The translations under genes were made by a program, and so were the position numbers. Below the pieces are notes generated by a model. It ran no database searches. It had not been told where the DNA came from and worked only from the letters and a program-made list of their open reading frames with translations. A DNA stretch of 33,745 nucleotides, taken from Leptolyngbyaceae cyanobacterium SM1_4_3 (GTDB lineage: Bacteria > Cyanobacteriota > Cyanobacteriia > Elainellales > Elainellaceae). Below, in pieces: positions 22,945 to 27,552 of the stretch. Positions within the stretch are counted from its first letter, which is position 1; the number at the start of each line of letters is the position of its first letter. The DNA lies in contig JAAUTN010000031.1 in NCBI GenBank assembly GCA_012031415.1, forward strand, positions 1 through 33,745, written 5' to 3'.

Positions 22945-23133
22945 ATGTCAATTGTATTTCAGATTGCACTGGCGGCTCTAGTGCTAATGTCTTTTGCCAT
23001 GATTATTGGGGTTCCAGTTGCCTATGCCTCTCCGCGCAACTGGGAGCAGTCTAAGCGGCTGATTTTGCTCGGCTCGATTGTTTGGATAGCGCTGGTGCTG
23101 TTGGTGGGCGGACTCAACTATCTGGTGGTTTAA
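22945..23133 (+). CDS. psbZ: photosystem II protein PsbZ (Ycf9)
   Basis: A 62-residue thylakoid membrane protein with two transmembrane helices (about 5-28 and 39-60) joined by the short [10 protein letters not shown] loop. [37 protein letters not shown] is the classic PsbZ sequence, and the length is exact for the family. PsbZ sits at the periphery of the PSII core near CP43 and stabilises PSII supercomplexes. GGGAG lies about nine bases upstream of the ATG. It precedes ribH by 40 bases, the same adjacency as in Synechocystis, and both are likely co-transcribed. Confidence 0.96.
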
Positions 23134-23173: not shown

Positions 23174-23758
23174 ATGGCAGTTTTTGAGGGTAGCTTTACC
23201 CAAACAGAATCCTGGCGATTTGCGATCGTCATTGGTCGTTTCAACGATTTAATCACTGACAAGCTACTGTCGGGCTGTCAAGACTGCTTGAAGCGGCATG
23301 GCATTGACCCTGATCCTCAAGGGATGCAGGTTGATTACATCTGGGTTCCAGGCAGCTTTGAGGTGCCGCTAGTGGCGCGTCAGCTTGCGCTGACTCACCG
23401 CTATGATGCTGTGATTTGCCTGGGAGCCGTAATTCGTGGGCAAACGCCCCACTTTGACTATGTTGCAGCTGAAGTGTCTAAAGGAATTGCGGCGGCTGGT
23501 TTTCAGACAGGCGTTCCAGTAATCTTTGGGATCTTGACCGCTGACACAATGCAGCAGGCGCTAGAGCGGGCTGGAATCAAAAGCAATAAGGGCTGGGACT
23601 ATGCCATGAACGCAATTGAGATGGCGAGTCTGATGCATCAGGTGAAAACGATCGCCCCTGACCTGTATGGCAATGGGTTGACGGGTAGCGCCAATCCTCA
23701 AACTTTGCCCGCCTCCATGAAGCGGGCGATCGCCCCTGAAGCGACAGAGGAAGGATGA
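23174..23758 (+). CDS. ribH: 6,7-dimethyl-8-ribityllumazine synthase
   Basis: RibH condenses 5-amino-6-ribitylamino-uracil with 3,4-dihydroxy-2-butanone 4-phosphate in the penultimate step of riboflavin synthesis; it forms icosahedral or pentameric shells in the cytosol. Substrate-binding motifs are visible: F23-N24 in [16 protein letters not shown] (59-65), and [14 protein letters not shown] (84-97) with the catalytic His93. The C-terminal helix EIASLMHQ-like region ([12 protein letters not shown]) is normal. The tail after ~165 is a Pro/Ala-rich extension. It follows psbZ on the same strand. Confidence 0.96.
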
Positions 23759-23869: not shown

Positions 23870-23941
23870 GCGGGTATAGCTCAGTGGTAGAGCGTCACCT
23901 TGCCAAGGTGAATGTCGCGCGTTCGAATCGCGTTACCCGCT
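23870..23941 (+). tRNA. tRNA-Gly (anticodon GCC)
   Basis: A complete 72-base cloverleaf. The acceptor stem GCGGGTA pairs with TACCCGC, with discriminator T at 23941. The D arm contains GCTCAGTGGTAGAGC. The anticodon stem TCACC/GGTGA encloses loop TTGCCAA, with GCC at 23902-23904. The T arm GCGCG-TTCGAAT-CGCGT includes one G-T pair. CCA is not encoded. The 291 bases after it, up to 24232, contain no gene I can support. Confidence 0.97.
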
Positions 23942-24232: not shown

Positions 24233-24640
24233 GTGCAATCTCAGAAGAATCACAAGATTGACCTGAACTCTGACTATCCTTGCCCCTGCCGCCGCCGTGG
24301 TCGGCTTACTCCGATCGCATTGACCGAGGCGTTTGGCTGCAATCGATGTCAGCAAATATTTGTAGTGCAGGAGGGGGGTTACGTAATTGAGCAGCTTTCC
24401 ACCAATTACCCTTACAAACGGGCTTGGCGCTGGTCTGGGCATCAGTGGAGCATGGCACACTCCAGTTTGGGCAGGGGCTATTTGTCGCTGACTCTAGCGA
24501 TTATTTTTGGATTAGTTTTTTTGCTGCTGATTACCACCTTGCAGTCACCTCTGAGTACCAGTATCACGTTTCGAGTGATTGCGGCTCTTTTCCTCTCGGT
24601 GCTGCTTGTCTTTATGCTTTGGCTGGCTTGCAGACGTTAG
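24233..24640 (+). CDS. zinc-ribbon-like membrane protein, unknown function
   Basis: A 135-residue protein. The N-terminal half has paired cysteines in YPCPCRRRGRL and GCNRCQQIF, spaced like a small zinc ribbon, followed by FVVQEGGYVIEQLS. The C-terminal half has two hydrophobic segments (about 83-101 and 110-131) and ends in CRR. The GTG start at 24233 was chosen because no upstream start is compatible with the reading frame. Its stop lies three bases before the ProA-like gene, so the two are probably co-transcribed. I recognise it only as a conserved cyanobacterial hypothetical. Confidence 0.75.
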   Translation: MQSQKNHKIDLNSDYPCPCRRRGRLTPIALTEAFGCNRCQQIFVVQEGGYVIEQLSTNYPYKRAWRWSGHQWSMAHSSLGRGYLSLTLAIIFGLVFLLLITTLQSPLSTSITFRVIAALFLSVLLVFMLWLACRR

Positions 24641-24643
24641 CTG

Positions 24644-25906
24644 ATGGTAGTGAATTCTTCAAATTCTTCATCTGACGTAGTGACGACTGCTCTTTCTGCC
24701 CACCAGTCTTCTCTGGTTTTAGCGGCGATGAAAGGAGCAGATCGCAGTCGTGCCCTTCAGGGAATGGCAAAAGCTTTGAATAAGCGGCAGGATGACATTC
24801 TAGAGACAAATACGCTAGACTTGGAAGCTAGTCGTGAAATGGCCGTGCCGGAGTTAATTTTGGACTGGCTAAAGCTAACACCTGAACGGCTTCAAACAGC
24901 AGTACAAATTTTGCAGCGGTTGGGAGAGCTATCTGATCCTATTCAGCAAGTGTTAAACACACCCTTTCAAGTAGATCAGTGCCAAACGTACTGTCAACTC
25001 ATGCCCTTAGGGGTAATCGCGCTGATCTACGAAGCTTTCCCAGAACTGGCGGCGATCGCAGCAGGTTTGTGTATTCGCACGGGCAATAGCTTGATTCTCA
25101 AGGGAGGCAGTGAGTCCAGCCATTCCAATCAAGTGATTGCTGAGATTTTGCAAGATGCAATTGAAGATGCTGGCTTACCGCGAGATGCCTTAAAACTAAT
25201 TCCGGCTGATCAGGGCGACCCGATCCGGGAACTGGTGACGCAAGATCAGTACATTAACCTGGTGATTCCTTATGGTCGGGCTAGCCTGGTACAGCAGGTG
25301 ATTCGGCAGGCGACAGCGCCCGTCTTGAAAACTGCAATTGGCAATTGCTGTCTTTACTGGTCGCCTTCTGGCAGTATGGATGTAGCACGCTGGATGATTT
25401 TAGACAGCCATCAGAGCGATCCTGATCCGGTGAATGCGATCGAGAAGGTGCTGATTCATCGCGAGCATCAAGCCTCTTCTTTAACAACCCTTTGGCATAG
25501 CCTGAAGGAAAAGGGCTTCAAGATTAAAGGCGACATCGAGTTAGCAGCCCATTTTCCGGAACTGTCTCCGGTTGACTCTATTGAGTGGGGACGAGCCTAC
25601 TTAAATAAAACGATTGCCTTTAAAGCAGTGGATGGATTGGAGACGGCGATCGCCTGGATTAATCAGCATAGTAGCGGTCATGCTGACTGTCTGGCCACTG
25701 AGTCTTACCAGGAGAGCCGCCAATTTGCCCTGGGAATTAATAGCGCCATGACCTATATCAACGCTTCTCCGCGATTCAGGCGCAACCCCAAACCGGGCAA
25801 CCCCATTTCGTTAGGAGTGTCTAACCAGAAGGGACATCGCCGAGGGTTAATTAGCTTAGAGACATTAACCACCGTCAAGTACATCGTTCAGGGCAATGGA
25901 TTGTGA
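24644..25906 (+). CDS. gamma-glutamyl phosphate reductase (ProA)-like protein lacking the catalytic cysteine
   Basis: A 420-residue member of the ProA branch of aldehyde dehydrogenases, which makes glutamate-5-semialdehyde in proline synthesis. ProA-like features include ALSAHQSSLVLAAMKGADRSRALQGMAKAL, LMPLGVIALIYEAFPE, GNSLILKGGSESSHSNQVI and the C-terminal ISLETLTTVKYIVQGNG. In true ProA the active-site segment reads like QRPxVCNAxETLLV; here it is DPDPVNAIEKVLIH, with Val263 in place of the nucleophilic Cys. The flanking residues are also changed (GHRRGLISLE for ARGPVGLE). It is probably a second, divergent ProA paralogue without dehydrogenase activity, so no gene symbol is given. It follows the zinc-ribbon gene by three bases. 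Confidence 0.85.
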   Translation: MVVNSSNSSSDVVTTALSAHQSSLVLAAMKGADRSRALQGMAKALNKRQDDILETNTLDLEASREMAVPELILDWLKLTPERLQTAVQILQRLGELSDPIQQVLNTPFQVDQCQTYCQLMPLGVIALIYEAFPELAAIAAGLCIRTGNSLILKGGSESSHSNQVIAEILQDAIEDAGLPRDALKLIPADQGDPIRELVTQDQYINLVIPYGRASLVQQVIRQATAPVLKTAIGNCCLYWSPSGSMDVARWMILDSHQSDPDPVNAIEKVLIHREHQASSLTTLWHSLKEKGFKIKGDIELAAHFPELSPVDSIEWGRAYLNKTIAFKAVDGLETAIAWINQHSSGHADCLATESYQESRQFALGINSAMTYINASPRFRRNPKPGNPISLGVSNQKGHRRGLISLETLTTVKYIVQGNGL

Positions 25907-26322: not shown

Positions 26323-27552
26323 TTAAGCAGCCCCGATCGCTTCAATCGCGGCTTCCAGGGCGATCGCCACGTGCGTCCAGTGCGTTCCTCCCTGACAGAA
26401 GACGGTGTAGGGTTCTCGCAGCGGGCCATCTGCCGAAAACTCGGAGGTACTGCCATCGATAAAGGTGCCGCCTGCCATCACTAACTGACTCTCATAACCC
26501 GGCATTTCAGCCGGAACGGGGCTGAGATAGGAACCAATGGGTGAATGCTGCTGAATCGCTCGACAGAAGGCAATCAGCTTTTCGGAGGAACCCAACCGCA
26601 CTGCCTGAATCACATCGCGACGCGGCTCAAACGGCAGCGGGTTGACAGGATAGCCCAACTGGTCAAACACGTAGGCCGTCAGGTGATTGCCCTTCATCGC
26701 TTCCCCAACCATCTGCGGCGCGAGAAATAGCCCCTGAAACAACAGCCGATTTTGGTCGAAGGTGGCTCCCCCAGCGCTGCCGATGCCAGGGGCAGTGAGC
26801 CGACAGGTGGCGGCTTCTACCAGGTCAGCCCGTCCTGCCACGTAGCCGCCTGCGGGAACAATGGTGCCCCCCGGATTTTTGATTAGCGATCCGGCGATCA
26901 GGTCGGCCCCGACTACGGGTGGCTCTCGGTCTTCGATGAATTCGCCGTAGCAATTATCGACAAAGCAAACGGTATCAGGGTTTTGCTGTTTAACCAGACG
27001 GACAATTTTTTCGATGTCGGCGATCGCCAAACTCCGCCTCCAGGAATAGCCGCAAGAGCGCTGAATTAAGACTAAACGAGTATGCTTCTGCACCGCAGAC
27101 TCTAACCCTTGCCAGTCCAGAATGCCTTCGGAAATAAGGTCTAATTGACGGTATGAGATGCCAAATTCCTTTAGAGAACCTTGACCCTGCCCCCTTAAAC
27201 CAATTACTTCTTCTAAAGTGTCATAGGGGGCACCTACTACGGCTAGCATCTCGTCTCCGGGGCGAAGCACCCCATACAGGGCAGAGGCGATCGCATGAGT
27301 GCCTGAGACAAACTGCACCCGCACGGCAGCAGCTTCAGCACCCATAACCTCGGCAAACACCTGATCCAGGATTTGCCGACCCAGATCATCGTGTCCATAG
27401 CCCGTCACTCCGGCAAAGTGATGGACTCCGACCCGGTGATGACGCAGGGCTGTTAGCACTCGCTTCAGGTTTTTCTTGACCTGAGCGTCAATTCCAGAAA
27501 AAATCTGGAATAGTGCCTGTTCTGCTCGTCGCAGTCGTTCAACGCTGTTCAC
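26323..27552 (-). CDS. methionine gamma-lyase family PLP enzyme (aluminium resistance protein type)
   Basis: A 409-residue PLP-dependent protein of the fold type I family annotated as methionine gamma-lyase family or aluminium resistance protein. Typical blocks are HHFAGVTGYGHDDLGRQILDQVFAEVMGAEAAAVRVQFVSGTHAIASALYGVLRPGDEML, CFVDNCYGEFIEDREP (PLP Asp/Asn region), DLIAGSLIKNPGGTIVPAGGYVAGR, with the probable Schiff-base Lys in SLIKNPGG, and GSAGG. The C-terminus is a glycine/alanine-rich sequence ending in EAIGAA. The substrate is not known with certainty in cyanobacteria; a C-S lyase role is suggested by the family name only. It is monocistronic, with its own terminator. Confidence 0.92.
   Translation of the reverse strand: MNSVERLRRAEQALFQIFSGIDAQVKKNLKRVLTALRHHRVGVHHFAGVTGYGHDDLGRQILDQVFAEVMGAEAAAVRVQFVSGTHAIASALYGVLRPGDEMLAVVGAPYDTLEEVIGLRGQGQGSLKEFGISYRQLDLISEGILDWQGLESAVQKHTRLVLIQRSCGYSWRRSLAIADIEKIVRLVKQQNPDTVCFVDNCYGEFIEDREPPVVGADLIAGSLIKNPGGTIVPAGGYVAGRADLVEAATCRLTAPGIGSAGGATFDQNRLLFQGLFLAPQMVGEAMKGNHLTAYVFDQLGYPVNPLPFEPRRDVIQAVRLGSSEKLIAFCRAIQQHSPIGSYLSPVPAEMPGYESQLVMAGGTFIDGSTSEFSADGPLREPYTVFCQGGTHWTHVAIALEAAIEAIGAA

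Follow-up and report, generated by a model that had tools for sequence, protein, structure and literature searches.

The closest described relatives of the gene analyzed here are proA, which encodes gamma-glutamyl phosphate reductase (GPR), and the GPR domain of P5CS (ALDH18A1). In DmP5CS, the thioacyl intermediate forms on the nucleophile C598, R525 touches the adenine of NADPH (PMC8963878), and R712 and D715 bind gamma-glutamyl phosphate (G5P) (PMC11061531). A broad survey of P5CS and ProA counted a single ProA for each of 27 cyanobacteria and described the catalytic Cys as conserved (PMC11061531). In Synechocystis PCC 6803 proA is annotated twice, as sll0461 and sll0373, and both genes rise under nitrogen starvation by RT-PCR (PMC12386471). 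Disruption of sll0461, called a gamma-glutamyl phosphate reductase in the papers concerned, increases PHB in standard medium in a strain that is viable (PMC3859321, PMC3766872). Pseudoenzymes are already known as protein families; in the literature searched, no description was found of a Cys-less ProA in cyanobacteria or of a ProA pseudoenzyme that spans a whole clade and has a conserved membrane partner.

The window, the whole stretch of DNA analyzed here, comprises 33,745 nucleotides of contig JAAUTN010000031.1 from Leptolyngbyaceae cyanobacterium SM1_4_3. It carries a gene for a ProA-like protein lacking the catalytic Cys, together with a gene for a small membrane protein, as follows.

24233..24640, + strand: operon partner, a zinc-ribbon membrane protein of 135 amino acids with a GTG start, ending 3 nt before the ATG at 24644.
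24281..24349, + strand: zinc-ribbon motif of the partner, CPC...GC..C (C17, C19, C36, and C39), from an alignment of 38 proteins.
24479..24634, + strand: two predicted membrane helices of the partner (residues 83-104 and 109-134), from AlphaFold2 (mean pLDDT 70.5) and hydrophobic stretches.
24644..25906, + strand: Cys-less ProA-like protein with the ALDH fold, 420 amino acids, probable orthologue of Synechocystis sll0461.
25037..25039, + strand: codon of Phe132; by alignment, Arg in 32/32 canonical ProA (ESRP motif) and Phe, Leu, or Ile in Cys-less proteins.
25271..25273, + strand: codon of Tyr210; by alignment, Arg in 32/32 canonical ProA (IPRG motif) and Tyr in 96/99 Cys-less proteins.
25430..25432, + strand: codon of Val263, aligned with the catalytic Cys of ProA and P5CS (DmP5CS C598; PMC8963878).
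25781..25783, + strand: codon of Arg380; by alignment, the G5P-binding Asp (DmP5CS D715) in canonical ProA and Arg in 99/99 Cys-less proteins.

The ProA-like open reading frame is uninterrupted over 420 codons, from the ATG at 24644 to a stop codon ending at 25906. The best solved relative of the protein is T. maritima ProA (1o20), which aligns with residues 26 to 417 (E value, 1e-66); PF00171 matches residues 10 to 228, and a Foldseek search with a predicted model, itself weak, ranked ProA structures at the top. As judged from its whole-length homology, the protein belongs to the ALDH superfamily by fold and descent. The segment PGTCNAAEKLL of 1o20 pairs with PDPVNAIEKVL, which places Val263 in the column of the catalytic Cys, and the adjacent Asn264 is retained. 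The preliminary description of the window had recognized an intact gene, a retained ALDH-like fold, the replacement of the catalytic Cys by Val263, and alteration of the surrounding segments. The unbroken frame, the 1o20 and PF00171 matches, the clade-wide Val or Ile, and the replaced canonical columns described below bear it out on each of these points. The protein scores 339 bits against NF001221 (cutoff, 289) and 286 bits against TIGR00407 (cutoff, 317.45); its acceptance by NF001221 would explain why two proA genes are annotated in cyanobacteria.

Val or Ile occupied the Cys column in all 22 orthologues from other cyanobacteria (60 to 97% identical, with the motif DSHQSEPDPVNAIEKVL; sources include Leptolyngbyaceae, Oculatella, Elainella, Nostoc, Kamptonema, Lyngbya, Hydrococcus, Snowella, and others), as well as in about 80 further genomes. 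A chance substitution or sequencing error behind Val263 is ruled out by this clade-wide replacement. In a sample of 291 genomes of the phylum, 141 of them Cyanobacteriia, the Cys-less gene was present in 102 of the 141 and was not found in other classes; in family f19, all 36 of the small genomes sampled lacked it as well. The column held Val in 95 and Ile in 4 of 99 typical members and Ala, Ala, Gln, and Val in four divergent ones (Cys in 0/103 overall), compared with Cys in 32/32 canonical proteins. In trees the Cys-less proteins formed a single clade (SH-aLRT, 99; 100/100 in a smaller, careful tree), and the window protein lies within this monophyletic group, in which Val or Ile fills the Cys column and Arg the Asp column. 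The conserved Cys-less clade that the preliminary description had proposed looking for is thus found in both alignment and trees.

Nei-Gojobori dN/dS values between close relatives were 0.02 to 0.08 for the ProA-like gene, which is under strong purifying selection, and 0.015 to 0.06, where unsaturated, for the zinc-ribbon partner. The low ratios together with the invariant new residues argue for a changed function under maintenance. Further drift, with Ala or Gln at the Cys column, was seen in the Cys-less proteins of loci L125 and L126 (genus g27), L083 (family f25), and L085. C235 is gone in L125, L126, and L083, and the C terminus is shortened in L125; in all of these lineages the zinc-ribbon gene still adjoins the Cys-less gene. 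The additional drift in L083, L125, and L126 fits a weakening of constraint there.

Members of the Cys-less clade are about 30% identical to cyanobacterial ProA, versus 33 to 36% to Bacillota ProA (Priestia highest), and they branch apart from cyanobacterial ProA on a long stem in an unrooted tree. The matches listed from plasmid and phage collections reached only 32 to 37% identity, and the six plasmid-borne proteins examined all have the Cys. The clade's identities to ProA and its branching make a recent copy of the resident gene a less likely origin than acquisition or duplication in the distant past. The suggestion of a repurposed ProA paralogue thus holds for the repurposing, but the protein is no obvious duplicate of cyanobacterial ProA, being nearer the Bacillota type.

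To define which positions had changed, 66 canonical columns, each at least 94% conserved in a set of 32 canonical sequences (cyanobacteria, sister classes, T. maritima, B. thailandensis, E. coli, and plant P5CS), were compared with the 99 typical Cys-less proteins. The latter keep 36 of these columns and replace 19, many of them by one new residue. The replacements are R75W, R132F/L, R191G (Gly in 86/99), R210Y, H236Y, D240S, K256H, and C263V/I, followed by V292F, H338W, T376P, D380R (99/99), E389F, and T394N. The Rossmann-region landmarks G123, N148, L152, and G154 are retained. Of the DmP5CS residues C598, R525, R712, and D715, only R712 survives, as R377, which is kept in 92/99. A relocated active-site Cys was looked for in the alignment and rejected: C235, the sole Cys invariant in typical members, is equally canonical (32/32), and some divergent members lack it, while C143 and C349 are not invariant. 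The preliminary description had named a conserved Cys elsewhere in the active site as grounds against its reading, and none was seen. The AlphaFold model of the ProA-like protein is weak (23 close sequences; mean pLDDT, 62.5; poor superposition, with a TM score of about 0.4), and statements on the pocket accordingly rest on alignment to solved ProA.

The remaining Arg, His, and Lys columns of canonical ProA would, judged by their invariance, be expected to line the cleft as well. The exchange of Arg, His, and Lys for Phe, Tyr, His, and Trp, of the G5P-binding Asp for Arg, and of the Arg contacting the NADPH adenine for Gly makes it likely, we infer, that the old cleft binds a different, less phosphate-like ligand. 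Loss of the Cys would make the thioacyl chemistry of gamma-glutamyl phosphate reductase impossible, and the protein is almost certainly devoid of GPR activity, as far as its residues allow this to be predicted.

The partner has no match in Pfam or NCBIfam. Among 38 partner proteins C17, C36, and C39 are invariant and C19 nearly so, and a W.W.G..W stretch is conserved. A clear orthologue was detected in 97 of the 141 Cyanobacteriia genomes, in 95 of them with the ProA-like gene, and in 94 of those 95 the partner lies directly upstream on the same strand, typically with 15 to 80 nt between the matched regions. The co-occurrence is significant by Fisher's test (p = 2e-24) with kinship ignored, and a single family contributes the majority of double absences; as evidence, the conserved adjacency weighs more heavily. 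Cotranscription with a zinc-ribbon membrane protein, as first proposed from the window, gains support from this conserved order and the short gaps. Seven genomes have the ProA-like protein with no partner detected, including the Synechocystis-type G070 and G087. In the reduced genomes of one genus the partner has two in-frame stops (G177), is a partial match (G262), or has no clear orthologue (G141), and the ProA-like frame is open in all three. Retention of the ProA-like gene where the partner is undetected, broken, or weak indicates that the partner is not obligatory.

Several other features of the locus were recorded. A weaker second relative of the partner (about 60 to 80 bits; e.g., G000:C144:15573-15815 in the window's assembly) occurs elsewhere in most genomes that have the first, and these second relatives are a small uncharacterized family of their own. 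No NtcA-type site (GTAN8TAC) was found near the operon, and the count of such sites across the window matches chance. Upstream on the same strand lie a psbZ-like open reading frame (22945-23133), ribH (lumazine synthase; 23174-23758), and a tRNA-Gly gene (23870-23941). On the other strand, positions 26323-27552 encode a PF06838 methionine gamma-lyase-like protein (654 bits), which falls far under every NCBIfam equivalog cutoff.

We consider that the ProA-like gene probably encodes a repurposed, catalytically dead ProA with a new ligand. The alternative that survives best, unlikely as it is, would be a thiol-free enzyme that uses the ALDH scaffold for another reaction, with His256, Arg377, Arg380, or Tyr210 serving, for example, in hydride transfer or isomerization. 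Strict conservation of the replacing residues Y210, H256, and R380, as in an active site, would suit such an enzyme, as would the retained Rossmann-region residues. However, the R191G replacement removes the Arg that contacts the NADPH adenine and the IPRG loop is altered, making cofactor binding doubtful, and the gene has no conserved metabolic neighbor, ribH and psbZ lying upstream in only 27 of 74 loci.

The preliminary description had asked for a canonical proA elsewhere in the genome, and a search of the window's assembly found one on another contig (G000:C527, locus L001; 544 bits, with PSACNAIE). As this assembly is a draft of 700 contigs with 4.3% estimated contamination, that copy alone is not proof, but two matches, one Cys-less and one canonical, also occur in closed genomes of the class, for instance in G011, which belongs to the same family. 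Two ProB-like genes also exceed the cutoff in the draft (G000:C664:3348-4373, 457 bits; G000:C317:7516-8586, 327 bits), representing either a true second copy or contamination. Canonical ProA accompanies the Cys-less gene in nearly all genomes, and the coexistence of both in about 100 genomes fits a regulatory subunit of the proline pathway that modulates flux by binding ProB or by entering oligomers together with canonical ProA. The shared fold, the oligomers formed by ProA and P5CS, and the joint rise of the two Synechocystis genes in nitrogen starvation (PMC12386471) point the same way. Against it, the Cys-less gene is unlinked to proA or proB, its product shares only about 30% identity with canonical cyanobacterial ProA, and the 36 sampled f19 genomes have ProA and not the Cys-less gene. 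Moreover, profile, protein, and flanking-DNA searches did not find canonical ProA in two closed Nostocaceae-type genomes, G046 and G278, which retain the Cys-less gene, ProB, and ProC (loci L074/L135 and L075/L136 on C1). The Cys-less gene is thus not kept there only to assist ProA, and we regard a role as a proline-pathway subunit as less probable still than that of a thiol-free enzyme.

The same two genomes bear on whether the protein could be a true second ProA, making gamma-glutamate semialdehyde independently of Cys or via Cys235. G046 has ProB and ProC with only the Cys-less copy and no match to TIGR00300 or to ornithine cyclodeaminase (PF02423). In gene content alone, G046 resembles the case named at the outset as counting against repurposing, in which canonical proA is missing while proline would still be made by this route; the window's own genome does not. 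G278 has a TIGR00300-type protein, which we liken to ArgZ/AgrE and which may presumably supply proline from arginine. The Cys-column motif of the Cys-less copy is unchanged in both genomes, and the absence of ProA there is therefore no demonstration that this copy makes proline; G046 may be auxotrophic for proline, or a stretch may be missing from its assembly. A clean deletion of canonical ProA was also considered for the two genomes, but local order is too rearranged for an empty-site reading, with matches limited to part of the ProA flank in G278 and to repeat-like sequence in G046. Annotation as proA and the NF001221 score favor a second ProA. These are outweighed by the TIGR00407 score under its cutoff, a Cys235 that is canonical too and dispensed with in divergent members, Arg in place of the G5P-binding Asp in 99/99, and the published mechanism, in which the catalytic Cys forms the thioacyl intermediate (PMC8963878), and this reading is very improbable. 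A decaying, pseudogene-like remnant without function, which the lost catalytic residues and the drift or loss in some lineages might suggest, is contradicted by the dN/dS of 0.02 to 0.08, the intact frames in about 100 genomes, and the many invariant columns and can be set aside.

Within the preferred reading of a dead, repurposed ProA, the protein may on balance be a nonenzymatic ligand-binding or regulatory protein. The rebuilt cleft would take up another ligand in place of gamma-glutamyl phosphate, binding of which would alter contact with the membrane-anchored zinc-ribbon partner or another protein, and the altered contact would tune the partition of carbon and nitrogen. That it acts with the partner as a membrane-linked carbon/nitrogen regulator is a tentative proposal.

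Synechocystis offers a phenotype to which this proposal can be compared. In G070, a genome of that genus, a Cys-containing proA lies directly before a UrtE-like gene. In PCC 6803 urtE is sll0374, and proA is depicted as one of the neighbors of the urea genes (PMC6737895). Taken together, these positions make sll0373 the canonical gene. The Cys-less gene of G070 adjoins a Cph1-like phytochrome gene (recognized by eye), which agrees with the location of sll0461 near slr0473 in PCC 6803. By gene order in this related Synechocystis, rather than by the 6803 sequence itself, sll0461 is very probably the Cys-less protein. Since the disruptant grows, sll0461 is dispensable in standard medium, and its viability is easier to understand if sll0461 is not the proline enzyme. 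Under the tentative proposal above, the increase in PHB would come from a loss of regulation and not from a proline block; a transposon insertion in sll0461 may also act on neighboring genes. The fullest form of the proposal, a widespread cyanobacterial sensor in which the dead ProA pocket reads a metabolite of carbon or nitrogen status and signals via the zinc-ribbon partner, its loss explaining the sll0461 PHB phenotype, is speculative and rather doubtful.

If the protein is indeed no reductase, the supposed second proA of most cyanobacteria is misannotated, metabolic models wrongly include it among the proline enzymes, and the PHB result for sll0461, so far explained by a blocked proline route, needs another reading. 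With the replacement pocket and the membrane partner both conserved, a concrete new function could be tested in a model strain.

Compared with known systems, the protein resembles ProA (TIGR00407 and NF001221; structures 1o20, 4ghk, and 8zok) and the GPR domain of P5CS in full-length homology and in 36 of 66 canonical columns, including N264, R377, G233, and C235. It differs from them in having Val or Ile for the Cys and Arg for the G5P-binding Asp, and the canonical R132, R191, R210, H236, K256, and E389, among others, are all replaced. Its probable orthologue sll0461 differs in setting, as the Synechocystis genome G070 has no detected zinc-ribbon partner, unlike the window locus. Outside the ProA family, ALDH16A1 of mammals is a member of the ALDH superfamily reported to be without the catalytic Cys. 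Its orthologues, like the Cys-less clade, would be a conserved group from which the ALDH nucleophile has disappeared; ALDH16A1 differs in ALDH family and lineage and in having no related operon.
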